DNA from: Deltaproteobacteria bacterium
GTDB taxonomy: Bacteria; Desulfobacterota; Syntrophia; Syntrophales; UBA2210
Reading direction: 5' to 3'
Assembly: GCA_016933215.1 (NCBI GenBank)
Contig: JAFGBH010000054.1
Span: forward strand, 1 to 34,987
DNA: 34,987 nucleotides
This document shows positions 5,603 to 34,987 of the stretch, one piece after another (position 1 is the first letter of the stretch; the number at the start of each line of letters is the position of its first letter). A program made the translations under genes and the position numbers. The notes beneath the pieces were generated by a model. That model was not told the DNA's origin and ran no database searches. It saw only the letters and a list, made by a program, of their open reading frames with translations.

Positions 5603-7213
5603 ATGGTTAAGATAACCTGTCTGGGTGCAGCGGGTTCGGTCACGGGATCGAACTTCCTCCTCGAAGACTCAAGGGGAAATAAAATTCTCGTCGATTGCGG
5701 TCTCTTCCAGGGCGGCAAGCAGATGGAGAAAAGGAACGACGGGGAGTGGGGGTTTGATCCAAAAGAGATACAATCACTGGTGCTGACCCACGCACATATC
5801 GATCACAGCGGCAGGATTCCAAAACTGGTGAGAGACGGATTCGGCGGAAAGATTATCACCTCTCCACCGACGGCGGAACTCTGCCAGATCATGCTCCTCG
5901 ATTCAGCCCATATTCAAGAGATGGATGCCGAATGGCAGACACGGAAAAACAGAAGGCAGGGGAAGAAAGATGTACGGCCCCTTTACACAATCGCCGATGC
6001 CGAGGAGAGCCTGAAATGTCTTTCGCCTCTTGAACGGGATGTTACTACCACCATCGAACCGGGGATACGATTACGCCTCAGAAATGCGGGACACATACTC
6101 GGTTCATCTATTGCCGAGCTCTGGATAGAAGACGGGGGTGAAGAGACCAAGATCGTCTTTTCGGGGGATCTGGGTAATAAGAATCAGCTTATCGTCAAAG
6201 ATCCAGAGGAAATCGTGGCGGCCAATTACCTCTTTGTCGAATCCACCTATGGCAACCGTCTGCACCGAAGCTTTGAAGACAGCAAGAAAGAATTGCTGGA
6301 AGCGATCCTCCACGCCGTATCTCACAAAGAAAAGGTGATAATTCCGGCATTTGCCCTGGAACGGTCGCAAGAAATCCTCTATCTCCTCGGCGAATTCTAT
6401 CGTGACGGTTCCCTTCCCGATATCCCCGTCTACCTTGACAGCCCCCTTGCCATCAAGGCAACGGAGATTTTCCGCAGGAACAAGAAATACTATGACGAAG
6501 AGGCACGGGTAATCGTTCAGCAGGGCTTCGATCCCTTCGATATGCCGAATCTCCACTTTACCCCCAGAACAGAGGAATCCATTGCCATCAATGAGCGGCC
6601 CGGCCCGGCAATCATAATCTCGGCGAGCGGGATGTGCACGGCGGGACGGATCAAACACCACCTGAAACACAATCTCTGGCGCCCCGGTGCCAGTATCGTG
6701 ATAGTCGGGTTCCAGGCGGGGGGAACAACGGGGCGGCAGATTGTCGATGGGGCAGAAAGCGTGAAGATCTTCCACGAAGACGTGGCGGTAAGGGCAAAGG
6801 TCTTTACGATAGGGGGATTCTCAGCCCATGCCGACCAGAAAGGACTCCTCGAATGGATCAGCAACTTTGCCGAATCCCGCCCGCGTGTCTTTATTGTCCA
6901 CGGAGAGCCGACATCGAGCGAGATACTGGCAGGCAAAATCGGGGAGAATTTCGGTCTCGAGACACATATCCCATTCTGGAGAGAAACGCTGCTTCTCGAA
7001 GCGAGAGAAATGAAAACAGAGGCGATGCCGGAGGAGGAAATACCCCTTGATACGAGCCACTATATGATGAACGGCATTGCCGATATTGAAAAAGAACTGA
7101 AGAGCCTTAAAAAACGCATAAAAAGGGGAATAGCCGAGGGAAAAATCGGCGAGGACGATGTTGAGAGTCTCAGAAAAATTCAGGGAGAGCTCTCTTCACT
7201 GATATCCAAGTGA
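5603..7213 (+). CDS. Beta-CASP metallo-beta-lactamase-fold RNase-like protein
   Basis: A 536-residue protein of the YSH1/CPSF73-like bacterial group. The N-terminal lactamase half has the zinc motif HAHIDHSG (about 60-67), an upstream Asp in VDCGLFQGG, and further metal ligands in RNAGHILGSS and VFSGDLG. The beta-CASP insertion includes GMCTAGRIKHHLKHNLW, with the final histidines in GGFSAHADQKGLLEWI and FIVHGEPTSSE. Together these correspond to RNA-processing exo/endonucleases that act on RNA in the cytoplasm. The C-terminus ends in a Lys/Glu-rich probable coiled coil (about 485-530). The start is ATG 5603 after GGTGAGGGC. All metal ligands appear present, so an active enzyme is likely. Confidence 0.9.
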   Translation: MVKITCLGAAGSVTGSNFLLEDSRGNKILVDCGLFQGGKQMEKRNDGEWGFDPKEIQSLVLTHAHIDHSGRIPKLVRDGFGGKIITSPPTAELCQIMLLDSAHIQEMDAEWQTRKNRRQGKKDVRPLYTIADAEESLKCLSPLERDVTTTIEPGIRLRLRNAGHILGSSIAELWIEDGGEETKIVFSGDLGNKNQLIVKDPEEIVAANYLFVESTYGNRLHRSFEDSKKELLEAILHAVSHKEKVIIPAFALERSQEILYLLGEFYRDGSLPDIPVYLDSPLAIKATEIFRRNKKYYDEEARVIVQQGFDPFDMPNLHFTPRTEESIAINERPGPAIIISASGMCTAGRIKHHLKHNLWRPGASIVIVGFQAGGTTGRQIVDGAESVKIFHEDVAVRAKVFTIGGFSAHADQKGLLEWISNFAESRPRVFIVHGEPTSSEILAGKIGENFGLETHIPFWRETLLLEAREMKTEAMPEEEIPLDTSHYMMNGIADIEKELKSLKKRIKRGIAEGKIGEDDVESLRKIQGELSSLISK

Positions 7214-7401: not shown

Positions 7402-8046
7402 ATGAAGGATAAATACTCAATCATCGGACCCCTGTACGATTTTCTCGCCACCATCTACAGTTTCAATCAGATAGACAAATGCAAAACTGCCATGCACGAC
7501 ACGATCAAGACCGACGATAAGGTTCTCTTCGCCGGTGTGGGACACGGGATTGACGCCATAGCGGCGGCTGAACGCGGGGCACAGGTAACGGTCGTTGACC
7601 TGTCGGAAACAATGCTTGCGAGATTCAACAGGGGTCTCAGGAAAAAGGAATTCAGGCACCCGATACGGCAACTCCATGACAATATTCTCAACATTGACGA
7701 ATCTTCCAGTTACGATTTCGTCTTCGGCAACTTCTTTCTCAATGTATTTGAAGAGGAGATGATGCTAGAAATTCTCAGCCAGCTCGTAAAACTGGCAAAA
7801 CGAAAGGGATATGTCGTGATAGGGGATTTCTCACTCCCGACGGGAAATCCTGTCGCACGGTTCTTTCAGATACTCTACTGGCGTATTGCCGATCTGATTT
7901 TCTGGGCCGCTGCACAAAATGCCCTTCACCCGGTCTATGATTATCAGAAATACATGAAGCAACTCGGCTGCAAGATAAAAACGGTGAAGTATTTCAGATT
8001 TCTCTTCGATGATCGTTACTATTCGATTCTGGGACAAAAAAAGTAG
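7402..8046 (+). CDS. Class I SAM-dependent methyltransferase
   Basis: A 214-residue cytoplasmic protein with a Rossmann methyltransferase core. Motif I is VLFAGVGHGID (41-51), followed by an acidic residue at the end of strand 2 in VTVVDLSETML (D66), then DNILNID and FDFVFGNFFLN-like motif IV around residues 92-115. It resembles UbiE/phospholipid-type methyltransferases, but the substrate cannot be read. It carries hydrophobic stretches near 150-172 that may contact a lipid or membrane. GGAG eight bases before ATG 7402 supports the start. The DUF2156 gene begins 76 bases after the stop, so it is likely part of the same unit, although it is not duplicated with the cassette that follows. Confidence 0.85.
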   Translation: MKDKYSIIGPLYDFLATIYSFNQIDKCKTAMHDTIKTDDKVLFAGVGHGIDAIAAAERGAQVTVVDLSETMLARFNRGLRKKEFRHPIRQLHDNILNIDESSSYDFVFGNFFLNVFEEEMMLEILSQLVKLAKRKGYVVIGDFSLPTGNPVARFFQILYWRIADLIFWAAAQNALHPVYDYQKYMKQLGCKIKTVKYFRFLFDDRYYSILGQKK

Positions 8047-8122
8047 CCAATCATTATCCGTCCCGATGCGCGAAAGGGTTCACTGTTGAAACACCGCTTT
8101 AAAAATCTTTAGTAAAGTGACC

Positions 8123-9097
8123 ATGCCGGACCATATAAATACCTTCAGCTTTGAAGAAAGAATAGCCTATTTGAGAGAATACGGCAGTCATTGCATGTCC
8201 TTTTCGGCCCTCCAACCGGGCATTCATTACTTCGACATGCCAGGCAAGGGATATATCGCCTATGCGGAAAAGTGGGGTATACGAGGCGTTCTCTCGGACC
8301 CCGTCTGCGATGCAGAGGATCGGGAGTCCCTGATCGGAGCGTTTATAAAAGGGGGCGGGCGCACGGGTTTCGCCCAGGTATCGGAACCTGTGGCGGAACT
8401 GCTGCACGAAAAATTTGGATTGTACGCAACGCAATTCGGCGTCGAATCGATCATCGATTTAAAAAACTGGGATCTGAAGGGAAAGAAAAAACAGGTCCTG
8501 AGGACCTCGCTGAATCAGGCCGTAAAAAGTGGAATAACTATCAGGGAAAACTATCAGGAACATCGGTACAACGAGCTTTCCCGGGAGTGGGTAAAGACAA
8601 GAAAGGTAAGAAACAGAGAGATCAGGTTTCTCATCAGACCGATGAACATGGACTATCAGGAGGGAACGAGAAAATTTTTCGCCTACCGTGGAGACGAACT
8701 CATCGGATTTATCTTCTTCGATCCCGTCTACTCACACAACAGGGTGATAAGCTATGTTCCCAATATCTCCCGATTCAGCCAGTCATTTAGGCAGGGCATC
8801 TTCTACACCATAATGTTACAGGCCATGGAAACCTTCAGGGAAGAGGGTGTCGAACAGATCCATCTTGGCCTTTCTCCTTTTGTCGTCGGCGACAGGGATC
8901 GCCATTACGAATCGAAAATAACAAAAAAGCTGATCCGTTCGCTCTATCATTACGGCAACAGCATTTACAGTTTTAAGGGGATATATTTTACGAAATCGAG
9001 ATTCCGTGGGAAAGACTACCCGACATTCTGTTCCCACCGAAGAAACGTGCCGCTCAGGGAAATCATAACCCTCTTTAAAATTTCAAATCTCCTGTAG
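8123..9097 (+). CDS. DUF2156 (LPG-synthase C-terminal-like) protein, cassette copy 1
   Basis: A 324-residue soluble protein of the DUF2156 family, the dual-GNAT domain found at the C-terminus of phosphatidylglycerol lysyltransferases. Seen: GKGYIAYAEKWG and SDPVCDAED at the N-terminal half, the family hallmark DLKGKKKQVLRTSLNQA (K/R-rich), SRFSQSFRQGIFYTIMLQAMETF and HLGLSPF near the C-terminus. It lacks the membrane flippase domain of true MprF, so it acts as a stand-alone acyl- or aminoacyl-transferase candidate. The ATG at 8123 is preferred; a GTG six bases earlier is also open and neither has a strong ribosome site. The reductase gene begins 57 bases downstream. It is a paralogue of 11001-12068, with long identical blocks. 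Confidence 0.8.
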   Translation: MPDHINTFSFEERIAYLREYGSHCMSFSALQPGIHYFDMPGKGYIAYAEKWGIRGVLSDPVCDAEDRESLIGAFIKGGGRTGFAQVSEPVAELLHEKFGLYATQFGVESIIDLKNWDLKGKKKQVLRTSLNQAVKSGITIRENYQEHRYNELSREWVKTRKVRNREIRFLIRPMNMDYQEGTRKFFAYRGDELIGFIFFDPVYSHNRVISYVPNISRFSQSFRQGIFYTIMLQAMETFREEGVEQIHLGLSPFVVGDRDRHYESKITKKLIRSLYHYGNSIYSFKGIYFTKSRFRGKDYPTFCSHRRNVPLREIITLFKISNLL

Positions 9098-9154
9098 CGA
9101 GACGTGGGGTGGAGGTTTGATTATAATAACCGCTGTCAAAAAAGGAGCGAAACA

Positions 9155-10696
9155 ATGGAAATACCCTCGATAATTCTGAAGAAACTCTATGTGGCGGGAA
9201 GCCTCGTCAATTCGGAAGGAGGAGTTCACTTCTGCCTTACCAATCCCTTGGGTGACGCCACGCTCACAGGCATCTCAAAGGTGGAGATAAACGGCAAGGA
9301 GATATCACTCGACAAAATAGTTGCGACGCTGGAAGGAAGTACCATACGGGCCTCCGAGGTGAATGAGGAGAATGCAATCCAGTTTCTTCTCGGGCAGGCG
9401 GTGGATATTCAGGTTCATATGGAAACGCTGGAAGAGGAAAAGGAACACTTCCTAAGTTTTGCCTTTGATACCGATCCCTTCGGTCCCCTGAATTTCGACG
9501 TCACCGATATTATTACCGAGGAGACCGCATCACCGGCAAAGATTCCTTACGACAGGGCCCGGGACTACGAACCCGAGATAATTCAAAGACGCCAGCGGTT
9601 CATCGAAGAGTTTGCCGGCGTAAGGCTTTCATATATCGATAAATACCCCTTTGACCCGAAGGTCGTGCAGGGGAATATTGAAAATTTTACCGGCGTGGCC
9701 CAGGTGCCGATCGGCTTTGCAGGTCCGCTGAAAGTTAATGGAGAACACGCCCGGGGCGAGTACGTGATTCCCCTTGCCACCAGCGAAGGATCTCTCGTCG
9801 CCTCGTACAACCGGGGAATGAAATTTATAAATCTCTGCGGCGGGATCACCACGACGATATCGGATGACGCCATGCAGCGGGCACCTGTTTTCATCTTTGA
9901 CTCAGGGAGGGAGGCACTCGCCTTTGCAAACTGGATAGACGAAAATTTGGAGGAACTTCGGCTACAGGCCGAGGCAACATCAAATGTGGCAAAACTCATC
10001 AATATTCAGAAATTTCTCGTCAGTAAGTTTGTTTACCTCCGATTCAACTTCAAAACCGGCGACGCGGCGGGTCAAAATATGGTCACCGTTGCCACCTTTG
10101 CGGCCTGCAACTGGATTTTGAATCACTTCAAAGACATCCGGCACTACTACCTTGACGGCAACATCACCACCGACAAGAAAGCGTCAATAATCAACACGCT
10201 CCATACGCGGGGCAAGCGCGTCACCGCAGAATTAACCATGCAGCGCGATCTCCTCATCGAACAACTGCGGGTTGATCCTGAAACCTGCGTCTATTTCAAC
10301 AAGGTGGCAAACCTCGGAACCTTTATGGCAGGAGGCTCCAGCAACGGCCTTCACAGCGCTAATGCCCTTGCCGCCCTCTTTATCGCTACGGGACAGGATG
10401 TGGCAAACGTGGCTGAATCCTCAACGGGCCTGATTCACATGGAAGTGACCCCCGACGGTGATCTCTATGCATCGCTTACCCTTCCATCGCTCATTGTCGC
10501 CACCTACGGAGGAGGCACGGGACTCCCCACCCAAAAAGAATGCCTCGAGATACTTGGCTGCTACGGGAAGGGAAAGGTCCTGAAATTTGCCGAGATCGTG
10601 ACCGCCGTCGCAGCGGCAGGGGAGCTTTCGCTCGGTACAGCCATATCTTCCCTCGACTGGGTATCGGCGCATGAGAGATACGGTCGAAATCGTTAA
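9155..10696 (+). CDS. HMG-CoA reductase-like enzyme with extra N-terminal domain, cassette copy 1
   Basis: A 513-residue class I-type 3-hydroxy-3-methylglutaryl-CoA reductase homologue, which in the family makes mevalonate from HMG-CoA with NADPH. Residues about 140-513 are the catalytic region: ENFTGVAQVPIGFAGPL, PLATSEGSLVAS (Glu211), GDAAGQNM in place of the usual GDAMGMNM, TDKKASIIN (Lys341), ATGQDVAN (Asp415), GGGTGLPTQ, and the C-terminal His506 in SAHERYGRNR. The full catalytic set is present. Residues 1-125 are an added beta-rich domain not found in typical reductases, resembling in pattern the beta subunit of C-glycoside deglycosidases. ATG 9155 is preceded by AAAGGAG; the frame is open from 9104. 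No transmembrane anchor is seen. The true substrate may differ from HMG-CoA. Confidence 0.87.
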   Translation: MEIPSIILKKLYVAGSLVNSEGGVHFCLTNPLGDATLTGISKVEINGKEISLDKIVATLEGSTIRASEVNEENAIQFLLGQAVDIQVHMETLEEEKEHFLSFAFDTDPFGPLNFDVTDIITEETASPAKIPYDRARDYEPEIIQRRQRFIEEFAGVRLSYIDKYPFDPKVVQGNIENFTGVAQVPIGFAGPLKVNGEHARGEYVIPLATSEGSLVASYNRGMKFINLCGGITTTISDDAMQRAPVFIFDSGREALAFANWIDENLEELRLQAEATSNVAKLINIQKFLVSKFVYLRFNFKTGDAAGQNMVTVATFAACNWILNHFKDIRHYYLDGNITTDKKASIINTLHTRGKRVTAELTMQRDLLIEQLRVDPETCVYFNKVANLGTFMAGGSSNGLHSANALAALFIATGQDVANVAESSTGLIHMEVTPDGDLYASLTLPSLIVATYGGGTGLPTQKECLEILGCYGKGKVLKFAEIVTAVAAAGELSLGTAISSLDWVSAHERYGRNR

Positions 10697-11000
10697 GAAA
10701 TTCAAGTCGTTTATCACATAATACGCCGTCGGCTACCGGTCTAACCGCAATAAAAGGACATCGCAGGCCCTCTAATCCACCACCACATAATACAAGTTTT
10801 TACCTGATATTACACTTGTAACTATTTAGCAAGACATCCCCTGTCAAATATGGCTTAATAATAACCCCGTACACGAGGATCTCTACTTCAAAGCAAAATT
10901 TGAAAGAGATGAAAAGGTACCGTAGAATCTTGATTTTTGAAATTCTTACAAACGGGAAGCGGTGAGGCTTTTTTCAATTTTCAGAATAAGGGGAGAACAG
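10697..11000. other. Intergenic spacer between the two cassettes
   Basis: These 304 bases separate the first reductase from the second DUF2156 gene. I see no gene, no tRNA and no convincing terminator. There is an AT-rich stretch, including TTAATAATA near 10853, that could carry a promoter for the second cassette, but no clear -35/-10 pair. The decamer CACATAATAC occurs twice (about 10716 and 10785). The last 30 bases hold the ribosome site GGGGAG for the next gene. Confidence 0.4.
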
Positions 11001-12068
11001 ATGTACGTCTCAAATCATTCGTCAACAGCTTTCGATTACACGCAGGGAAAGTCACAGGTCAGGGTTCTGCTCGACAACGTTCATGTACTCAGGAAACCTG
11101 AGGAAAAGCGAAGATTTAATTTTACCGAGAGGGTTCGGTACCTGAGGAAATACGGAAATCACTGTATGTCCTATTCGGCCCTCCAGCCGGGAATGCATTA
11201 TTTCGACATAGCCGGAAAGGGATACATCGCCTATATGGAAAAATGGGGGGCCAGATTCGCCCTGGCCGACCCGGTCTGTGATGAAAAGGATTACGAGGAA
11301 CTTATCGGGGAATTTATACGGGAAAATCCAAATTGCGGATTTGCCGAGGTATCTGAACCCGTGGCGAAACTTATCCACGATAAATTTGGATTCTACGGCA
11401 CGCAATTCGGCGTCGAATCTGTCGTTGACCTGAAATCGTGGGATTTGAAAGGAAAGAAAAAGCAGGTTCTGAGGACCTCGCTGAACCACGCAAAAAAGAG
11501 GGGAATCACCGTTACCGAGAAGCACAATGATGACGGAGCCCGAGAGCTCTCAGAAGAGTGGCTCAAGACGAGAAAGGTTAAAACGAGAGAAATTCTCTTT
11601 CTTATTCGTCCGATGAACATGGACCATGATTTGGGTACGAGAAAGTTTTTCGCCTATCAGGGTGACGATCTCATCGGCTTTATCTATTTTGATCCCCTCT
11701 TCGAGAACGACAGCTTACTAGGATATGTCCCCAATATCTCTCGATTCAGTCAGTCCTTCAGGCAGGGCATATTCTATACGATTATGGCTCACGCCATGGA
11801 AGTATTCAAATCGGAGGGTGTTCCTGAGATACATCTCGGACTGTCACCCCTTGTCACCGGTGAGGGAGACAAACACTATGAATCACCCATCGTCAAGAAG
11901 ATTATCCGTCTCCTTTACGAATATGGGAACAAGATTTACAATTTCAAGGGAATCTATTTTACAAAATCCAGGTTTCGCGGCACCGACTATCCGACATACT
12001 GCTGTCACAAATCAATAATGCCGGCAAAGAAATTTCTGACCATGTTTAAGATAGCAAACGTATTTTAG
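11001..12068 (+). CDS. DUF2156 (LPG-synthase C-terminal-like) protein, cassette copy 2
   Basis: A 355-residue paralogue of 8123-9097, sharing blocks such as CMSYSALQPG, GKGYIAY, TQFGVES, DLKGKKKQVLRTSLN, FLIRPMNMD, PNISRFSQSFRQGIFYTIM and FKGIYFTKSRFRG. By eye about two thirds of positions are identical. It has an N-terminal extension of about 35 residues rich in Ser, Gln, Asp and Arg that copy 1 lacks. No membrane segment is present, so as with copy 1 it is a stand-alone dual-GNAT transferase candidate. ATG 11001 is chosen because GGGGAG lies just upstream; the frame is open from 10962. The second reductase gene begins 43 bases after the stop, the same arrangement as copy 1. Confidence 0.8.
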   Translation: MYVSNHSSTAFDYTQGKSQVRVLLDNVHVLRKPEEKRRFNFTERVRYLRKYGNHCMSYSALQPGMHYFDIAGKGYIAYMEKWGARFALADPVCDEKDYEELIGEFIRENPNCGFAEVSEPVAKLIHDKFGFYGTQFGVESVVDLKSWDLKGKKKQVLRTSLNHAKKRGITVTEKHNDDGARELSEEWLKTRKVKTREILFLIRPMNMDHDLGTRKFFAYQGDDLIGFIYFDPLFENDSLLGYVPNISRFSQSFRQGIFYTIMAHAMEVFKSEGVPEIHLGLSPLVTGEGDKHYESPIVKKIIRLLYEYGNKIYNFKGIYFTKSRFRGTDYPTYCCHKSIMPAKKFLTMFKIANVF

Positions 12069-12111
12069 AGGCACGAAGCATAAAGTTTGCGCAGTAAGAA
12101 AGGAGAGGGAA

Positions 12112-13653
12112 ATGGAAATACCAGCGCTGATCTTAAAACAGCTATACTCACTGGGTAGCCTCATGAATGTGGAGGGAGGGATTCGTTTCGGTATCAAAAA
12201 TCCCCTGGCAGATGCATCGCTGACAGGTGTCTCGAAAGTTGCAATCAATGGTAGTGACGTTCCGCTCGACAGGATCGAGGCCAAACTGAACGGCTCTACC
12301 GTACGGGCAACGGAAGTCGATGAAACAAACCTGATACCCTTTCCCCTGGGACAGGTCATTGACGTCTATGCCCACATAGATTCTCTGGAAGAGGGAAAGC
12401 AGCACCAGATCTGCATTGCCTTCAACACCGATCCCTTCGGTGCCCTCAATCTCGAGGTCAGTGACACCATCTCCCATGACAACGGGGACAGGATAACCAT
12501 TCCCTCAGACAGGGCTCGAAACTATCAGCCCGAAATCGTGCTCGAACGCCAGGAATTCGTGGAAGATTATACGGGCGTGAAGCTGGAGCATTTGACCAAA
12601 TACTCCTTCGACCCGGCGGTTACGCAGGGAAATATTGAGAATTTTACCGGTGTTGCACAGGTGCCCGTCGGCTTTGCAGGTCCAATCCGTCTCAACGGGG
12701 AGCACGCTCAGGGTGACTTCATTATCCCCCTGGCCACAAGTGAGGGAACTCTGGTTGCCTCCTACAACAGAGGGATGAAAGTAATCAACTTATGTGGTGG
12801 TGTTAAGACAACCATCTCGGACGACTGCATGCAGCGGGCACCTGTCTTTGTATTTGATTCAGCCAGAGAGGCACGGGAATTTTCCCTCTGGATCGATGAA
12901 AATATGGACGACATCAGAAAACAGGCGGAATCAACATCAACAGTCGCAAAGCTTTTGAATATCCAGAAGTTTCTTGCAAGCAAGTTCACCTACCTCCGGT
13001 TCAATTTCTCCACGGGAGATGCGGCAGGACAGAATATGGTCAACCACGCCACCTTTTCTGCATGCAACTGGATCATGAACCACTACAAGGGAATCCGTCA
13101 CCACTATCTGGAAGCCAACTTTGCCACCGATAAAAAGGCATCGCAGGTCAATATCATGCACACACGGGGGAAAAGGGTCACCGCCGAGATAACGATAGAT
13201 CGGGAAGTCCTGATACAATACATGAGAGTCGACCCGGAAACCCTCTGCTATCACAGCAGTGTCGCCAATGTGGGGGCCTTCATGGCGGGGGTGAATAACA
13301 ACGGTCTCCACTCGACCAATGCCATTACGGCAATGTTTATCGCCACGGGCCAGGATGTGGCGAATGTGTCGGAGTGCTCGGCGGGCATGCTCTACACGGA
13401 AGTAACTCCGGAGGGAAATCTCTATGGTTCGATCACTATTCCCTCCTTAATCGTTGCAACATACGGAGGAGGCACCGGTCTTCCCACTCAGAGAGAATGT
13501 CTGGAAATACTCGGGTGCTACGGCAAGGGAAAGGTGCGAAAATTTGCGGAAATTGTGGCCGGTGTTATTGCTGCCGGCGAATTATCCCTTGCTGCTGCAA
13601 TTTCATCCCTCGACTGGGTGACAAGTCACGAGCGGTACGGGAAGAACCGTTAA
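12112..13653 (+). CDS. HMG-CoA reductase-like enzyme with extra N-terminal domain, cassette copy 2
   Basis: A 513-residue paralogue of 9155-10696 with exactly the same length and residue numbering for the catalytic set: Glu211 in PLATSEGTLVAS, Lys341 in TDKKASQVN, Asp415 in ATGQDVAN, His506 in TSHERYGKNR. GDAAGQNM and YGGGTGLPTQ are also kept. The N-terminal beta-rich domain (1-125) is retained but more diverged than the catalytic part, including around GSLMNVEGGIRFGIKNPL. Both copies are therefore probably active and may differ in substrate or partner. AAAGGAGAGGG before ATG 12112 is a strong ribosome site. A rho-independent terminator follows the stop. There are no neighbouring mevalonate kinase, HMG-CoA synthase or decarboxylase genes. 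Confidence 0.87.
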   Translation: MEIPALILKQLYSLGSLMNVEGGIRFGIKNPLADASLTGVSKVAINGSDVPLDRIEAKLNGSTVRATEVDETNLIPFPLGQVIDVYAHIDSLEEGKQHQICIAFNTDPFGALNLEVSDTISHDNGDRITIPSDRARNYQPEIVLERQEFVEDYTGVKLEHLTKYSFDPAVTQGNIENFTGVAQVPVGFAGPIRLNGEHAQGDFIIPLATSEGTLVASYNRGMKVINLCGGVKTTISDDCMQRAPVFVFDSAREAREFSLWIDENMDDIRKQAESTSTVAKLLNIQKFLASKFTYLRFNFSTGDAAGQNMVNHATFSACNWIMNHYKGIRHHYLEANFATDKKASQVNIMHTRGKRVTAEITIDREVLIQYMRVDPETLCYHSSVANVGAFMAGVNNNGLHSTNAITAMFIATGQDVANVSECSAGMLYTEVTPEGNLYGSITIPSLIVATYGGGTGLPTQRECLEILGCYGKGKVRKFAEIVAGVIAAGELSLAAAISSLDWVTSHERYGKNR

Positions 13654-13768: not shown

Positions 13769-14929
13769 CTATCTCTTCAGTTTTTCCTTGAGCCTCAGTA
13801 TCCTCCGGTAGGATTCATCTATTCTTTCGCTTTTTATCTCTCCCTCATCCACCAGCTTCTTTATCACGCCGGCGGCCCGCGCGGCTATATCCTCATCAAA
13901 GACGGAATTGTTCGCGAAGACCAAGATATCGCACCCCGCATGGATTGCCATTTTGATCGCCCTTTCGAGGCCGTAAAAGGATCGTATGGCTTTCATCTGC
14001 ATGTCATCGGAAATGACGACACCGTCGAACCCCATATCATCCCTCAGCATTCCACTTATTATCCCGTGAGAAAGGGTTGCCGGCCAGAGCGGATCAAGAC
14101 TGGCGTTAAAAATGTGGGCCGTCATGACCATATCGCACCGTCCCGATTGAATAATGACTTCAAAGGGCCTTAATTCATCAGGCGACCACTGATTCGTCAC
14201 ATCCACGAATCCCTTGTGGGAATCGGACGAGGAGCTTCCGTGACCAGGAAAGTGTTTGATCGCCGAGAGTACACCATGCTTGTGCAGCATATCGATACAA
14301 ACAATCGAATGCCTCGTCACAATATCCGGATCGGGAGAGAAGCTCCTTTCCAGCTTTCCGATCACAGGATTCCCGGGATTGCGATCAAGATCGACAACGG
14401 GGGCAAAATTCAGGTTGATACCAAGATCGGCGAGCGTTTTCGCCGTACTCTCGGCGTATCTTTTCGTGACCTCGGGATCATCAATTTTTCCAAGATACCT
14501 CTCCGACACTGAAGGAGGAAAGCCAAACCGCTCCTTGAGTCTGTTTACCCTTCCCCCTTCCTGATCGATTGCGATAAAAAGGGGGATCGACGATGCCGAC
14601 TGCAAGGCACTCACAAGGGATCGTACCTGATCGGGAGATTCTATATTTCTGATGGTGGATCCTGAGGGAACATCATAGTCAAAGAGGATGACACCCCCGA
14701 TTTTTCTTTTCTTTACATCGGCTATCACAGGGCTCCCGTCGGCACCGGAAAGTCCCCGGAATCCGATCATGATCATCTGGCCGATTTTCACATTCATATC
14801 TGCATCGGCTACGTTAAAATCCTCTGAGAATGAGAGGTCTGATACTATGAGAATTCCCAAAGCAATAATACAAAGGCTACGACTCCCGATGATTCTCCAT
14901 TTATATTGAGTGTTTCGCTTCCTATCCAA
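13769..14929 (-). CDS. nagZ: Glycoside hydrolase family 3 beta-N-acetylhexosaminidase (NagZ-like)
   Basis: A 386-residue GH3 enzyme that in this family removes N-acetylglucosamine from muropeptides during peptidoglycan turnover. Seen: IDQEGGRVNRL (121-131), the family signature KHFPGHGSSSSDSH (225-238) carrying the catalytic histidine loop, and the nucleophile Asp in VVISDDMQM (about 308). An N-terminal hydrophobic stretch (about 19-35, SLCIIALGILIVSDLSF) suggests a signal peptide or membrane anchor, so it probably works outside the cytoplasm, unlike E. coli NagZ. The start is a TTG at 14929, with AAGGAG eleven bases upstream; no in-frame ATG lies before the signal region. It converges on the HMGR terminator and diverges from the acidic repeat protein. 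Confidence 0.88.
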   Translation of the reverse strand: MDRKRNTQYKWRIIGSRSLCIIALGILIVSDLSFSEDFNVADADMNVKIGQMIMIGFRGLSGADGSPVIADVKKRKIGGVILFDYDVPSGSTIRNIESPDQVRSLVSALQSASSIPLFIAIDQEGGRVNRLKERFGFPPSVSERYLGKIDDPEVTKRYAESTAKTLADLGINLNFAPVVDLDRNPGNPVIGKLERSFSPDPDIVTRHSIVCIDMLHKHGVLSAIKHFPGHGSSSSDSHKGFVDVTNQWSPDELRPFEVIIQSGRCDMVMTAHIFNASLDPLWPATLSHGIISGMLRDDMGFDGVVISDDMQMKAIRSFYGLERAIKMAIHAGCDILVFANNSVFDEDIAARAAGVIKKLVDEGEIKSERIDESYRRILRLKEKLKR

Positions 14930-15105: not shown

Positions 15106-16170
15106 ATGAAAAAGGGCACTCACAGGTTTTTAGAAGTTTTGCGTTTTGCATGTCTGACCACGATTATTTTACTCGGATTTATTACAATCATAGGGACAAG
15201 CGGAGATGACGAGAAAACATCCGGTTCTGATACACGCGAAAGAGGTGTGTATAAATTTGTAGTGACAGAAATCGATAGCGGAGAATTTGAGCGCGGTGTA
15301 AAGACCCGTAAACTCGATATGGATAAGGACGAGGAACTGGTAGAGGAAAAAACCGAATATTTCGATGAAAACGAAAATTTACGAAGAGAAGTAAAAGACG
15401 ATGACGGTGACGAATTAGATGATTATGAAAATCAATTCGACTACAACGTAAACGGAGACATTGAAGAAGCCCGTTATGGATATTACGACGGAAGCGGAAT
15501 TCTCCAGATATCAAATATAATCGTATATACTTACTACAACGGCGAGCAAGGAGATAATCTATGGACGCAGGAGCTTGATAACGATTACGACGGCACCTTT
15601 GAAGTTGATGCTGCATACCAGTATACATACGTGGAACATGGTGATAAGTGGGATCTCGATAAAACGACATACGATAGCGACGGTGACACAGAGACAAATT
15701 ATACCTACACCTATGATTACGATTATGACGCTGTAAATGATCAATGGAACTTAACGACAGCTGGGTATTGGCTTGGGGATATTGATTTAGATAATCAAAT
15801 CTCCGAGGTTTCATATGTCTATGACGACGATGGAAATCTGCACATGAGCAAAACCGATTTTGATTTAAGCGGTGAAATAGACTGGACCTACGTTTTTACT
15901 TACGATGGAGACGGAAATAAAATAAGTGACGAAGCATATTGGGGCGATGGCGATACGGGAGATCTCATCTCAGGCATCTACTATACCTATGAAAGTGGAG
16001 ATTTAGTCAAAGAGGAATCTGATGAAAATGGAAATGGGAAGATTGATTCCGTTATTTATCGAGAGTATGACGATGACGATCCTGAGGGAAGAATAACAAA
16101 AGAAGAGACCGACTATAATAACGATGACGAAATCGATTTAACATACACCTGGGAATATATAGATAACTAA
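15106..16170 (+). CDS. Exported acidic protein with YD-like Asp/Tyr/Gly repeats
   Basis: A 354-residue protein. The N-terminus has basic residues and a hydrophobic segment ending TTIILLGFITIIGTSGDDE (to about residue 40), a signal-like pattern without a lipobox cysteine. The rest is very acidic and built from irregular repeats of about 20-40 residues such as YDDDGNLHMSKTDFD, YDGDGNKISDEAYWGDGDTG and ESDENGNGKIDSVIYREYD. These resemble Rhs/YD-type units and carry D-x-D-x-D/N-G patterns compatible with calcium binding. Codon use is more AT-rich than the neighbours. AGAAGGTG precedes ATG 15106. It has its own promoter and terminator, so it is a single-gene unit. Surface location is inferred; the function is unknown. 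Confidence 0.75.
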   Translation: MKKGTHRFLEVLRFACLTTIILLGFITIIGTSGDDEKTSGSDTRERGVYKFVVTEIDSGEFERGVKTRKLDMDKDEELVEEKTEYFDENENLRREVKDDDGDELDDYENQFDYNVNGDIEEARYGYYDGSGILQISNIIVYTYYNGEQGDNLWTQELDNDYDGTFEVDAAYQYTYVEHGDKWDLDKTTYDSDGDTETNYTYTYDYDYDAVNDQWNLTTAGYWLGDIDLDNQISEVSYVYDDDGNLHMSKTDFDLSGEIDWTYVFTYDGDGNKISDEAYWGDGDTGDLISGIYYTYESGDLVKEESDENGNGKIDSVIYREYDDDDPEGRITKEETDYNNDDEIDLTYTWEYIDN

Positions 16171-30620: not shown

Positions 30621-33600
30621 CTACATTCTCTTTTTGTACTTCAATTCCTCAAAGGTTATCCTGAATGTCGTTCCACCATTTCTCTCAATCTCCACAGAGG
30701 CATCAAGCTGGGTGACAAGAGTATCAACAAGCTGCAGTCCCAGTGTTTCGGTTTTCCGGAAGTCAAGATCGGCGGGCATTCCGATACCGTTATCGCTCAC
30801 AATGAAGACATATGTGCCGCCATTGGCCGAATGAAGGCCGATATGTATACCACCCTTTCTCCCCTCCGGAAAGGCATGCTTGAGGGAATTTGAAACCAGT
30901 TCGTTCGCGAGGAGGCCGAAGGGTGTGGCAGTTTCGATAGGGAAAAAGACCTCATCAACATCGAGGGTGAACCGAATGATATCCTGATCCACCCCATAGA
31001 TCTGGGAGAGATAATTGGTGAGGCTTCGTAGGTAATCTGCGCAGTCTATCCTGCTGATATCCTCCGATAGGTAAAGCTTTTCGTGTATGAGTGACATCGA
31101 TCGTATTCGGCTCCTGCTGTCTTCGAAAAGCTCTCGCGCCCTTTCATCATCAATATGTCTGGACTGAAGACTGAGCATACTGGAAATCACCTGCATGTTG
31201 TTCTTGACGCGGTGATGAATCTCCTGGAGCATAATTTCTTTTTCTTTCAGAGATTGCCGTATCTGCTCCTCTGCATGCTTGCGGTCCGTCACATCGCGAA
31301 TGACACCGCGGAATCCCATGGGAAGGAACTTTCCATCCCTCATCAGAGTAGCTGTTACCTCAAGTACCCTCACGGAACCGTCCTTCCTGATTATTTCATA
31401 GTCCTCAATTTCACCGGGGTTGCCTGTCCTGTAAATCTGGTTAAATGCCCGATAGGCCTTATCCGCCGTCTCGGGGGTCGTGTATTCGCGGTTGTTCATA
31501 CCCATGAGCTCATCAGGGGAATAGCCGAGAACCCTGCATGTTGAATCATTAAAAAAGGTGATATTGCCGACAAGATCAGTCTCGAAATATCCTTCACGAA
31601 TATTTTCGATGATCGCCCTGTACTTTTCTTCGCTTTTGCGAATTTCCTCCTCGGCAGCCTTGCGATCCGTCACGTCGCGAACGACACCGCGAAATCCTAT
31701 GGGACCGCCATCATCGCTCATCTTCAGCGTGACCGACAACTCCAGTATCCTTTTGCTGCCATCCATTCTGACTATTTCATAATTCACCAGCTCAGCAGGT
31801 TTTCCCGTTTTGTATATCCTATTAAAGTCCTCGTACATTCTCTTGGCCGTTTCAGGTGCCGTATATTCAAGATTGCTCAAACCCAGCAATTCTTCCCTGG
31901 GCAACCCCGCTATTCTGCACAGGGAATCATTAAAAAACGTAAATTTTCCTGCAAGGTCAACTTCGAAATAGCCTTCTTCTATACTCTCAAGGATGTTGCG
32001 GTATCTTTTCTCGCTCTCTATCAGCTTCTCCTCGGCATTTTTTCTCTCCGTGATATCGAGAAGCTGGGCGATAGTCTGCGTCTTTCCTTCCGAATAAGTG
32101 ACCACCGATGAGCTTATCTCGGCATGCCGTACCGTGCCATCTTTTCGCACTATGTTGAATCCGTATCTCGCCGGCAAAATCTCCCCGCCTCGCCTTTGGT
32201 GATAGCTCTTGGTAACAAGTTCACTGTCTTCTTCACCAAGAAATTCTCTAAAATCTCTCTCAAGCAGCTCTTTTCTGGAATACTTCAGCATGCGGCACAG
32301 TTCTTCATTGACATAGGCTAACCGATAGTTATCGTCCACGATGAGAATTCCCTCATGAGAATTTTCCACTATCGAACGAAAACGATCCATGCTTTCCATA
32401 AGCGCATCATTCAATCGCTTATACTCGGTCGTGTCCCGTGAAACGACGACGGCATGGGTTACTTTGCTGCCTCCGCTCGGGTATGGATAATAAGTCACAT
32501 CGAAATACCTGAGCCCCAGATCTTTGAACTCAAACCATCGCTGGTAATTCACCTCCTCGCCGGCAAAACAGCGCTCAAGGTGACCCTTAATTTCACCGTT
32601 GAAAACCTCATCACCCCATATATCGGCCGCAGACATCCCCACAATCTCATCTCTTTCGAGGCCTTGCGCCCTGCAGTATGCATAGTTTGCCGCTTCATAG
32701 ACATAACGGCTGTCAATAAGGGTCATCATATCACTCGCCGTATTCACGATAAATTCATATCTGCTCCACCGTTCCTCCATCCTCTTTCTTTCAGTAATAT
32801 CCGTATAGAGAGCAACAGCTCCAATCAATTCGCCACCCATCATTATCGGAGAACCTGCCACTATTACATGTACAGATGATCCATCCTTCCGATATCTTAC
32901 AACCTCCGAAGGGGGAACCTTTTGTCCGGCGAGGACCTGTTGAGACAAATCAGACGCCTCCTCAAGTACTTCCGGATTCGTGATCAGTTGATCAATATTC
33001 CTCCCCACCACCTCATCGGGAGTATATTCGAATAATCTCTCAGCCCCTTCGTTCCACTCAGCAACATTGTTGTCTTTATCAAGCGTAATGACTGCATCGG
33101 GAACCGCCCGCAACACCGATTCAAGGTAGAGCCGACGCTCTCGTATTTCTCGTTCACCTTTCTTTTTGTCAGTGACATCACGCGCAACACCCCTAAAACC
33201 GATGGGCTTTCCATCGGGACCCACCATCAGTGATGCCGACAGCTCGGCATATCTGATCGGGCCATCCTTTGTCAGAATCTCATAATCGACTATCTCCGAG
33301 GGATTCCCCGTAATATATACTTCGTGAAAAACCTGATATAAACTCTCTGCCGAGGCAGGGGTGGTATATTCCTGAAAATCCATGCCCGTAAGCTCGTCTC
33401 TGGAATAACCGGAAGAATCGCAGAGGATATCGTTGAAAAATGTCAGTCTTCCCGCCAGATCAACCTCGAAGTACCCCTCCTGAATGCTTTCGAGAATGGT
33501 CCTGTATTTTTCCTCGCTTCTTGTGAGTTCCTCCTCGGTCTTTTTCAGGTCGGTGATATCGGTAATTATTCCCTGAATACCCACGACGCGATCTTTATCA

Positions 33601-34940
33601 TAGACAGGCTGCGCGAAGGTAAGTGCCCAGATTACGCTACCCGATTTGGTTATTAACCGGTATTCCGTGGGTTCCGTTTTTCCTGCTATGATTTTCCGAA
33701 ATTGCTCGGCAATCGATTGAACGTCTTCCGGATGGATGAAATCGGTGATGGGTCTCCCTATTATTTCAGAGGGTTTATACCCCCCTATCGCTTCTGCAAC
33801 GGGACTTATATACGATATACATCCTTTTTCATCGGCGATATAGAAGATGTCCTTCATATTCTCCACGAGATTGCGATACTTCTCCTCACTTTCCCGCAGA
33901 GAGTCTTCAGCTTTTCTATGTTCGGCAAGCTCCCTGTTAAGGTCTCGTGTTCTCTCATGGACCCTCTTTCTCAATGTGCGGTTCCAGAGCAGTATCCCCA
34001 CAATTACCATGGCAATAGTTCCCAGGCCCGTAATGATACATATCCAGAATGTTTTACCTAATACCGGCAATCCCCTGTCCAGATGAATCCATTTCTCAAG
34101 TATCGCCGTCTTCTCCTTTTCCGTTATACCGGCGAGAGCCTTTTTTATGATACCGTGGAACTCCGGCCAGTCTTTGCGTGTCGCAAAAGACAACTTGGTA
34201 ACATAACCCGTTTCTCCCGCTACCCGAAGGTTTGTTATTCCCTCGCTTTCGATATAGTAGATCGCCACAGGGAGTGTTGCGACCAGGGCATCCGAAACGC
34301 CAAGAGATACTCTTTTCAAAGCGGTGCTGAGATCGGACACAAGATCGAGGCCTAAGTCCGGATAATCCTTTTCTATAAACTCATGCCATACATAGGACTT
34401 CACCACGGAAACCCTCATTCCCCTGAGGTCTTCCATGGTCAGATCGCCTACCTCTTTCCTTGTAATGATAACGCCGGGGAGGACGATGTGGGGATCGGAA
34501 AAGTGGACATATTGGGATCGGTCAGGCGTCTGCGCCGCGGCGGGAAGTACATCGACTTCCCTTTTTCTTGCTTTTTCGAGGACTTCTTCCCAGCTCTCGC
34601 AACGCAGAACCCTGAACTCTATACCGAGCTTTTCCTCGATAATCGCAATATAATCTGCAGAGATACCCCTGTAAATACCATTTTGATCAAAATATTCGAT
34701 GGGTGGAAAATAGGGATCGGGCGCTATGGTAATTACCCGATGCGAATCGAGCCAGCCTCTCTCTGTCTCGGTTACGGGGACTGAAATTCCGCCTGCACCC
34801 TTTGCACCAGCCACGGAGAGAAAAATGAAAAGAATTACCGACAAGAGAAGAAATGGACGCTTTGTGCTGAAACAATGAAGTGGTAACTGAAAAGCTCCTT
34901 TTCGGAATTTCCGAAGACAATATATCATCTTATTCGTCAT
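30621..34940 (-). CDS. Sensor histidine kinase: SBP_bac_3 - TM - seven PAS - HisKA_2/HATPase
   Basis: About 1439 residues. In order: a signal/TM segment (about 20-45, RPFLLLSVILFIFLSVAG), a periplasmic family 3 solute-binding domain (about 50-285, with ITIAPDPYFPPIEYFDQNGIYRG), a TM helix (about 295-320), a short coiled coil, seven PAS/PAC units (about 345-1215), then a HisKA_2 dimerisation motif HHRVKNNMQVISSMLSLQS (near 1237) with its phospho-acceptor His, and a HATPase_c domain with NELVSNSLKHAFPEG and DNGIGMP. It would sense an extracellular ligand and cytoplasmic cues and phosphorylate a response regulator that is not encoded here. Three PAS units (2, 6, 7) are close copies. The start is uncertain: ATG 34940, ATG 34928 and TTG 34967 lack clear ribosome sites. 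The gene is convergent with the hydrolase gene, 20 bases apart. Confidence 0.9.
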   Translation of the reverse strand: MTNKMIYCLRKFRKGAFQLPLHCFSTKRPFLLLSVILFIFLSVAGAKGAGGISVPVTETERGWLDSHRVITIAPDPYFPPIEYFDQNGIYRGISADYIAIIEEKLGIEFRVLRCESWEEVLEKARKREVDVLPAAAQTPDRSQYVHFSDPHIVLPGVIITRKEVGDLTMEDLRGMRVSVVKSYVWHEFIEKDYPDLGLDLVSDLSTALKRVSLGVSDALVATLPVAIYYIESEGITNLRVAGETGYVTKLSFATRKDWPEFHGIIKKALAGITEKEKTAILEKWIHLDRGLPVLGKTFWICIITGLGTIAMVIVGILLWNRTLRKRVHERTRDLNRELAEHRKAEDSLRESEEKYRNLVENMKDIFYIADEKGCISYISPVAEAIGGYKPSEIIGRPITDFIHPEDVQSIAEQFRKIIAGKTEPTEYRLITKSGSVIWALTFAQPVYDKDRVVGIQGIITDITDLKKTEEELTRSEEKYRTILESIQEGYFEVDLAGRLTFFNDILCDSSGYSRDELTGMDFQEYTTPASAESLYQVFHEVYITGNPSEIVDYEILTKDGPIRYAELSASLMVGPDGKPIGFRGVARDVTDKKKGEREIRERRLYLESVLRAVPDAVITLDKDNNVAEWNEGAERLFEYTPDEVVGRNIDQLITNPEVLEEASDLSQQVLAGQKVPPSEVVRYRKDGSSVHVIVAGSPIMMGGELIGAVALYTDITERKRMEERWSRYEFIVNTASDMMTLIDSRYVYEAANYAYCRAQGLERDEIVGMSAADIWGDEVFNGEIKGHLERCFAGEEVNYQRWFEFKDLGLRYFDVTYYPYPSGGSKVTHAVVVSRDTTEYKRLNDALMESMDRFRSIVENSHEGILIVDDNYRLAYVNEELCRMLKYSRKELLERDFREFLGEEDSELVTKSYHQRRGGEILPARYGFNIVRKDGTVRHAEISSSVVTYSEGKTQTIAQLLDITERKNAEEKLIESEKRYRNILESIEEGYFEVDLAGKFTFFNDSLCRIAGLPREELLGLSNLEYTAPETAKRMYEDFNRIYKTGKPAELVNYEIVRMDGSKRILELSVTLKMSDDGGPIGFRGVVRDVTDRKAAEEEIRKSEEKYRAIIENIREGYFETDLVGNITFFNDSTCRVLGYSPDELMGMNNREYTTPETADKAYRAFNQIYRTGNPGEIEDYEIIRKDGSVRVLEVTATLMRDGKFLPMGFRGVIRDVTDRKHAEEQIRQSLKEKEIMLQEIHHRVKNNMQVISSMLSLQSRHIDDERARELFEDSRSRIRSMSLIHEKLYLSEDISRIDCADYLRSLTNYLSQIYGVDQDIIRFTLDVDEVFFPIETATPFGLLANELVSNSLKHAFPEGRKGGIHIGLHSANGGTYVFIVSDNGIGMPADLDFRKTETLGLQLVDTLVTQLDASVEIERNGGTTFRITFEELKYKKRM

Positions 34941-34987
34941 AGGTGCCGAGGATAATTCTTTTATCAAAGTAAATCAACCGCTTTTAG

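Follow-up and report, generated by a model that had tools for sequence, protein, structure and literature searches.

A predicted long-chain acyl-CoA reductase (FcrA) inherited together with a soluble DUF2156 transferase and a methyltransferase in Desulfobacterota

The locus and its genes

The window, as we call the whole stretch of DNA analysed here (34,987 nucleotides of contig JAFGBH010000054.1, Desulfobacterota), carries two gene pairs lying head to tail. Each consists of a DUF2156-family transferase (hereafter GNAT) followed by a reductase related to HMG-CoA reductase (HMGR) and identified below as FcrA. A methyltransferase gene lies upstream, and all five genes are on the forward strand. 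The features are as follows.

5603–7213, forward: beta-CASP metallo-beta-lactamase RNase; left synteny anchor, outside the module
7402–8046, forward: SAM-dependent methyltransferase, 214 aa; third gene of the module
8123–9097, forward: GNAT copy 1, soluble DUF2156/LPG_synthase_C transferase, 324 aa (PF09924); its open reading frame opens with GTG at 8117
9155–10696, forward: FcrA copy 1, predicted HMGR-derived fatty acyl-CoA reductase, 513 aa (PF25653 and PF00368); open reading frame from 9104, ATG at 9155
9173–9517, forward: Lad domain (PF25653) of FcrA copy 1
10900–10928, forward: promoter-like site TTGAAA-17-TAGAAT before GNAT copy 2
11001–12068, forward: GNAT copy 2, soluble DUF2156/LPG_synthase_C transferase, 355 aa (PF09924); its open reading frame opens with GTG at 10962
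12112–13653, forward: FcrA copy 2, 513 aa (PF25653 and PF00368)
12130–12474, forward: Lad domain (PF25653) of FcrA copy 2, about ten beta strands in the model
13769–14929, reverse: GH3 beta-N-acetylhexosaminidase-like protein; right synteny anchor, outside the module

A sequence-only reading of this DNA had described a tandemly duplicated two-gene cassette of a soluble DUF2156 protein and an HMGR-like enzyme, and its measurements of the pairs hold. The gaps within them are 57 bases (9098–9154) and 43 bases (12069–12111), both reductases have 513 residues, and the two reductases are 67% identical and the two GNATs 66%, against a claim of about two-thirds. The GNATs are soluble insofar as neither they nor the reductases show a membrane-like stretch: over 19 residues the Kyte-Doolittle mean peaks at 0.72 for the GNAT and 1.77 for the reductase. 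That both copies are under selection is likewise borne out by dN/dS values of 0.03–0.10 in the computable pairs, which indicate purifying selection with the caveat that dS is close to saturation.

The start codon of GNAT copy 2 (ATG at 11001) is preceded by AAGGGGAG. The site at 10900–10928, from a scan that found 13 promoter-like sites where 7.5 were expected, is weak evidence for a separate promoter serving the second pair. Homology between GNAT copy 1 and its relatives continues upstream of the start codon, through 8084–8122 and across one in-frame TGA, suggesting that the N-terminus of this copy has been shortened.

Elsewhere in the window, positions 15106–16170 encode a 354-residue repetitive protein rich in Asp, Glu and Tyr, with a hydrophobic N-terminus and without a Pfam match, and positions 30621–34967 (reverse strand) encode a 1448-residue sensor histidine kinase with one solute-binding domain and six PAS domains. 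A link of the left-flank beta-CASP protein to the CRISPR type VII nuclease was considered and rejected; the profile match falls below its cut-off and the protein is an ordinary beta-CASP RNase.

Identity of the reductases

Both reductases match the HMG-CoA reductase family PF00368 (409 bits for copy 1 and 424 for copy 2) and, in front of it, the N-terminal domain PF25653 (99 and 110 bits, cut-off 27). Enzymes of this build have been described as FcrA, an HMGR-derived fatty acyl-CoA reductase with an extra beta-rich N-terminal domain termed Lad (Grossi et al. 2025, PMC11948995). We equate PF25653 with the Lad domain on the grounds of position, length and beta-rich fold. The AlphaFold2 model of FcrA copy 2 (pLDDT 82) combines an N-domain rich in beta strands with a catalytic part that resembles HMGR and matches its structure 6hr8 with a TM(target) of 0.81, and the window reductases are approximately 60–65% identical to FcrA members from Chloroflexota and Bacteroidota.

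Relatives of FcrA were collected by scanning genome contigs with a search built on a 17-sequence alignment. The catalytic residues Glu559, Lys691, Asp767 and His866 (human numbering) are invariant in all 98 members, including both window copies, as had been claimed for the latter. All 98 also carry three replacements in the substrate pocket: Ser684 to Asp or Glu, Lys735 to Ala, Gly, Ser or Cys, and Leu862 to Trp. The comparison set consisted of human HMGR, the Methanothermococcus HMGR and three other class I HMGR homologues, and most of the true class I HMGRs in it have Ser, Lys and Leu at these positions. FcrA copy 1 has Asp and copy 2 Glu at 684, and both have a small residue at 735 and Trp at 862. 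The published FcrA changes are the same three, the lysine being printed as Lys795, which we take as Lys735 (PMC11948995). In HMGR this lysine is salt-bridged to HMG, whose carboxylate may be repelled when residue 684 is acidic (PMC11948995); with the bridge lost and 684 acidic, the natural substrate is expected to lack that carboxylate.

On every sequence feature compared, then, the window reductases are FcrA and not HMGR, and the HMGR-like substrate first proposed for them gives way to that of an already described family. The characterised FcrA, from Ca. Promineifilum breve, is NADPH-dependent, reduces acyl-CoAs of C14 and longer to the alcohol, is inactive on HMG-CoA and is insensitive to statins (PMC11948995). 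By homology to this one member, the window enzymes would reduce long-chain acyl-CoA to fatty alcohol; their chain preference may differ, because residue 684 varies between Asp and Glu within the clade.

The Lad-type domain is not exclusive to FcrA, since it is also found fused to a uroporphyrinogen-decarboxylase-like protein (L039:7889-9478) and to an alpha-L-arabinofuranosidase (L040:7659-9608). PF25653 matches in genomes G184 and G489, the two beyond FcrA in the 395-genome sample described below and first considered as distant FcrA members, were set aside as such Lad-type domains on a uroporphyrinogen-decarboxylase protein and an arabinofuranosidase. Long open reading frames around FcrA at loci L076, L081 and L097 were examined as possible fusions and rejected, no other domain being present.

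It is extremely improbable that the reductases are true HMG-CoA reductases of the isoprenoid pathway, as PF00368 scores above 400 bits and annotation by similarity would have it. The MEP-pathway enzyme DXR is encoded in all 13 Desulfobacterota FcrA carriers, the window genome included, and the two window reductases are the only PF00368 genes of that genome. HMG-CoA synthase was sought with PF08540 and, because this model alone misses the archaeal-type enzyme, also with TIGR00748: PF08540 found none in the 13 carriers, and TIGR00748 gave weak matches far below its cut-off in the eight carriers tested. Two residues of the HMG-carboxylate pocket, Ser684 and Lys735, are replaced throughout the 98 members. 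Annotations as 'HMG-CoA reductase' in MEP-pathway bacteria, where the protein has a Lad domain, would on this reading be wrong.

Of the FcrA carriers examined from other phyla, six lack DXR, and five of these (all but G542) hold further PF00368 copies. Such copies are of class II or class I, or are fusions with a GHMP kinase, and show no Lad domain where scanned. In two of these carriers an HMG-CoA synthase gene adjoins the extra copy. The idea that the Lad enzyme serves as the mevalonate HMGR of Chloroflexota was dropped when TIGR00748 located the true synthase beside an ordinary HMGR. Genome G542 (Rhodothermaceae, the source of locus L111) has no DXR, an HMG-CoA synthase-like match and only a Lad-type reductase; gaps in the assembly are possible. 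An Acidobacteriota genome encodes an HMG-CoA reductase fused to a GHMP kinase, probably mevalonate kinase (L142:421-2679, reverse strand).

Co-inheritance and history of the module

We counted the three genes in a sample of 395 genomes of the phylum, using strict thresholds and profiles made from the carriers. Lad-containing FcrA, the GNAT subfamily and the methyltransferase subfamily each occur in 11 of the 395, and the 11 genomes are identical. The probability of such identity is about 1e-21 per pair if genomes are taken as independent. The carriers belong to three families, however, which leaves far fewer than 11 effective events. The pairing of DUF2156 and HMGR-like genes is therefore conserved across a lineage rather than confined to this locus, and the cassette has three genes where two had been proposed: the methyltransferase at 7402–8046 is present in exactly the same 11 genomes and lies adjacent to the cassette in nearly all Desulfobacterota loci. 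Gene order is methyltransferase–GNAT–FcrA in the window and in lineage f82, and methyltransferase–FcrA–GNAT in lineage f52.

Copy numbers of FcrA and GNAT are equal in all 11 genomes, at 2:2 in G000, G282, G355, G397 and G507 and 1:1 in the others. Separate contigs hold the second FcrA and the second GNAT of G282 and G397, but the two genes still take matching positions in the two gene trees. Twenty-one FcrA carriers of other phyla lack this GNAT (one has a weak generic match). This bears on the earlier suggestion that an aminoacyl or acyl group, once loaded by the transferase, is reduced by its partner to an alcohol or amino alcohol. Residue 684, being acidic, offers a conceivable binding site for an amine; nevertheless, FcrA occurs without the GNAT in those phyla, and the characterised FcrA takes free acyl-CoA of C14 and longer without a partner (PMC11948995), which makes this order of events very doubtful. 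We favour the other order first offered: reduction to an alcohol, followed by modification of that alcohol by the transferase.

The methyltransferase matches Methyltransf_25 (43 bits). Its best NCBIfam match is CpaM (86.5 bits, under the cut-off of 180), and it matches a phospholipid N-methyltransferase model weakly (36.9 bits). In the tree it groups with that of G475. This last profile match, an ether-lipid role proposed for some FcrA (PMC11948995) and the action of the DUF2156 archetype on phosphatidylglycerol (PG) would fit a scheme in which the FcrA alcohol goes into alkyl ether lipids while the targets of the GNAT and the methyltransferase are the head groups of these or of further phospholipids and not the alcohol. 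We regard this as unlikely: the cassette neighbourhoods showed no gene for an ether-lipid synthase, and the scheme does not by itself account for the strict 1:1 match in copy number between FcrA and GNAT.

The two window pairs are not products of a local tandem duplication, as the first description had it, but diverged anciently. With FcrA from other phyla as the outgroup, FcrA copy 2 is orthologous to the FcrA of loci L007 and L008, the single cassettes of two genomes of the same family, and so is GNAT copy 2 to their GNATs. These cassettes occupy the same position, flanked by the beta-CASP and GH3 genes, and the FcrA of L007 is 86% identical to copy 2. FcrA copy 1 is orthologous to that of L025 (G475), L045 and L046, which belong to other lineages, and GNAT copy 1 to that of L025 and L045, not to copy 2. 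Sisterhood of the window copies is rejected for both genes (p-AU 1.8e-26 for FcrA and 3.0e-5 for GNAT), so either the tandem preserves ancient paralogues that were lost in other genomes, or one cassette was acquired next to a resident one. The FcrA and GNAT trees agree with each other, the unlinked second copies included, and do not show the two families duplicating at unrelated times. Strict joint inheritance of FcrA, a private GNAT branch and the methyltransferase points to an undescribed modified-lipid pathway.

Two further features of the neighbourhoods were seen. In G475 (L025:11150-17998) the methyltransferase–GNAT–FcrA cassette is followed by a PfaD-like/FabD-insert protein and a KS-AT-ACP PUFA/polyketide synthase. 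In the f52 genomes (L043:5437-6612) an iron-containing alcohol dehydrogenase gene lies directly upstream of the methyltransferase and is possibly part of the fatty-alcohol pathway.

The proposed pathway and known systems

The GNATs match PF09924 (LPG_synthase_C, formerly DUF2156) with 172.6 bits for copy 1 and 185.8 bits for copy 2 (cut-off 27.5). The N-terminal flippase membrane domain of MprF is absent from them, the proteins being 324–355 aa long without a hydrophobic segment. Nearest folds of the GNAT model are L-PGS (4v36 for copy 2), A-PGS and MprF. FemX-like and further aminoacyl-tRNA transferases come next and acyl-CoA GNATs rank lower, an order that rests on a low-confidence AlphaFold2 model (pLDDT 55). 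We aligned 20 GNATs to three solved DUF2156 domains, deducing the numbering of Bacillus licheniformis L-PGS from a 58-residue spacing. Position 684 is Ser or Thr in all 20 (Ser in both window copies), and R742 and K814 are retained throughout. D739 is Asn in all 20 and the FSLG/DLMR/GMAPLS signature is largely changed, so donor and acceptor could have changed as well. S684 and R742 are reported to matter in the production of aminoacyl-PG (PMC11630815). In the same study, DUF2156 proteins excluded for missing the catalytic motif rarely have a flippase (PMC11630815), which makes the soluble members a mixed group.

We judge the chances about even that the module joins an alcohol made by FcrA, tRNA-dependent aminoacylation by the DUF2156 enzyme and tailoring by the methyltransferase. 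In a first step FcrA would use NADPH for the four-electron reduction of a long-chain acyl thioester to a fatty alcohol; of the three steps this is the only one with characterised homologues behind it. In a second, the DUF2156 enzyme would transfer an amino acid from aminoacyl-tRNA to the hydroxyl of the fatty alcohol or of a lipid derived from it, an acceptor modelled on those of relatives that act on phosphatidylglycerol, diacylglycerol and ergosterol. In a third, the methyltransferase would methylate the product, perhaps on the amino group. Between the two copies, the preferred chain or amino acid would differ. The more specific proposal, that the three Desulfobacterota families make an undescribed lipid consisting of long-chain alkyl esters of amino acids, formed by the DUF2156 enzyme on FcrA alcohols in a tRNA-dependent reaction and tailored by the methyltransferase, we offer only tentatively.

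The usual user of fatty alcohols is WS/DGAT. In Acidobacteriota, Gemmatimonadota, Rhodothermia and KSB1, FcrA adjoins genes for WS/DGAT, phasin, PhaR, patatin, acyl-CoA synthetase, PlsC and ABC1, and such neighbourhoods by themselves point to a fatty-acyl-type substrate, in agreement with the published description of the family. Among Acidobacteriota and their neighbours, FcrA lies in a recurrent storage-lipid island (L049, L058, L076, L077, L081, L087, L088, L111, L115 and L120) with an ABC1 kinase often directly downstream, then patatin, phasin, PhaR, WS/DGAT and PlsC, and sometimes ArsA. WS/DGAT is absent from 11 of the 13 Desulfobacterota carriers, the window genome included, and present in G475 and G003. 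What becomes of FcrA alcohols in the frequent cases without a wax synthase is a question posed with the description of the family (PMC11948995).

The GNAT might itself fill this place as an alternative wax-ester synthase, joining the FcrA alcohol to an ordinary acyl group that acyl-CoA or ACP would donate. The general absence of WS/DGAT from the carriers, its position beside FcrA in other phyla, the habit of GNAT folds of taking acyl-CoA and the PUFA/polyketide synthase adjoining the G475 cassette all speak for such a replacement. To our knowledge, though, every characterised DUF2156 enzyme uses aminoacyl-tRNA; the S/T684-R742-K814 pocket residues are retained; and G475 and G003 have both WS/DGAT and the GNAT. 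We give the wax-synthase reading a low probability, and prefer aminoacylation of the alcohol.

If this preferred pathway is correct, the strict 1:1 partner of FcrA offers, for one lineage, a testable answer on the fate of fatty alcohols. Amino acid alkyl esters would be a cationic or zwitterionic counterpart of wax esters, and tRNA-dependent lipid aminoacylation would be extended from glycerolipids and sterols to simple alcohols. No paper in the literature searched joins FcrA with a DUF2156 transferase or describes the module. The FcrA family has been known since 2025 and the DUF2156 transferase family for long.

Compared with published FcrA (PMC11948995), the window enzymes share the Lad N-domain, the catalytic tetrad, the change of S684 to an acidic residue, of K735 to a small one and of L862 to Trp, and occurrence in MEP genomes without a mevalonate pathway. 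They differ in being tied 1:1 to a DUF2156 transferase together with a methyltransferase, mostly without WS/DGAT, and in that residue 684 of copy 1, as of much of the clade, is Asp rather than Glu. The GNATs share with the synthase domain of MprF, L-PGS and A-PGS the Pfam family, the nearest fold and S/T684, R742 and K814, but lack the flippase domain, have D739 replaced by Asn and other signature changes, and form a clade of their own that, within the sampled genomes of the phylum, accompanies FcrA and is otherwise absent. The proposed chemistry, transfer of an amino acid from tRNA to a neutral-lipid hydroxyl, is that of ErdS/ErgS and LysX/AlaDAGS, DUF2156 relatives among which ErdS aminoacylates ergosterol (PMC9437257) and LysX diacylglycerol (PMC10580965); here the acceptor would instead be a fatty alcohol, and the window GNATs have no fused aminoacyl-tRNA synthetase. 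With the WS/DGAT wax-ester clusters the module would share an alcohol for esterification supplied by FcrA, while differing in that most Desulfobacterota carriers dispense with WS/DGAT and pair the reductase with a transferase of another family.
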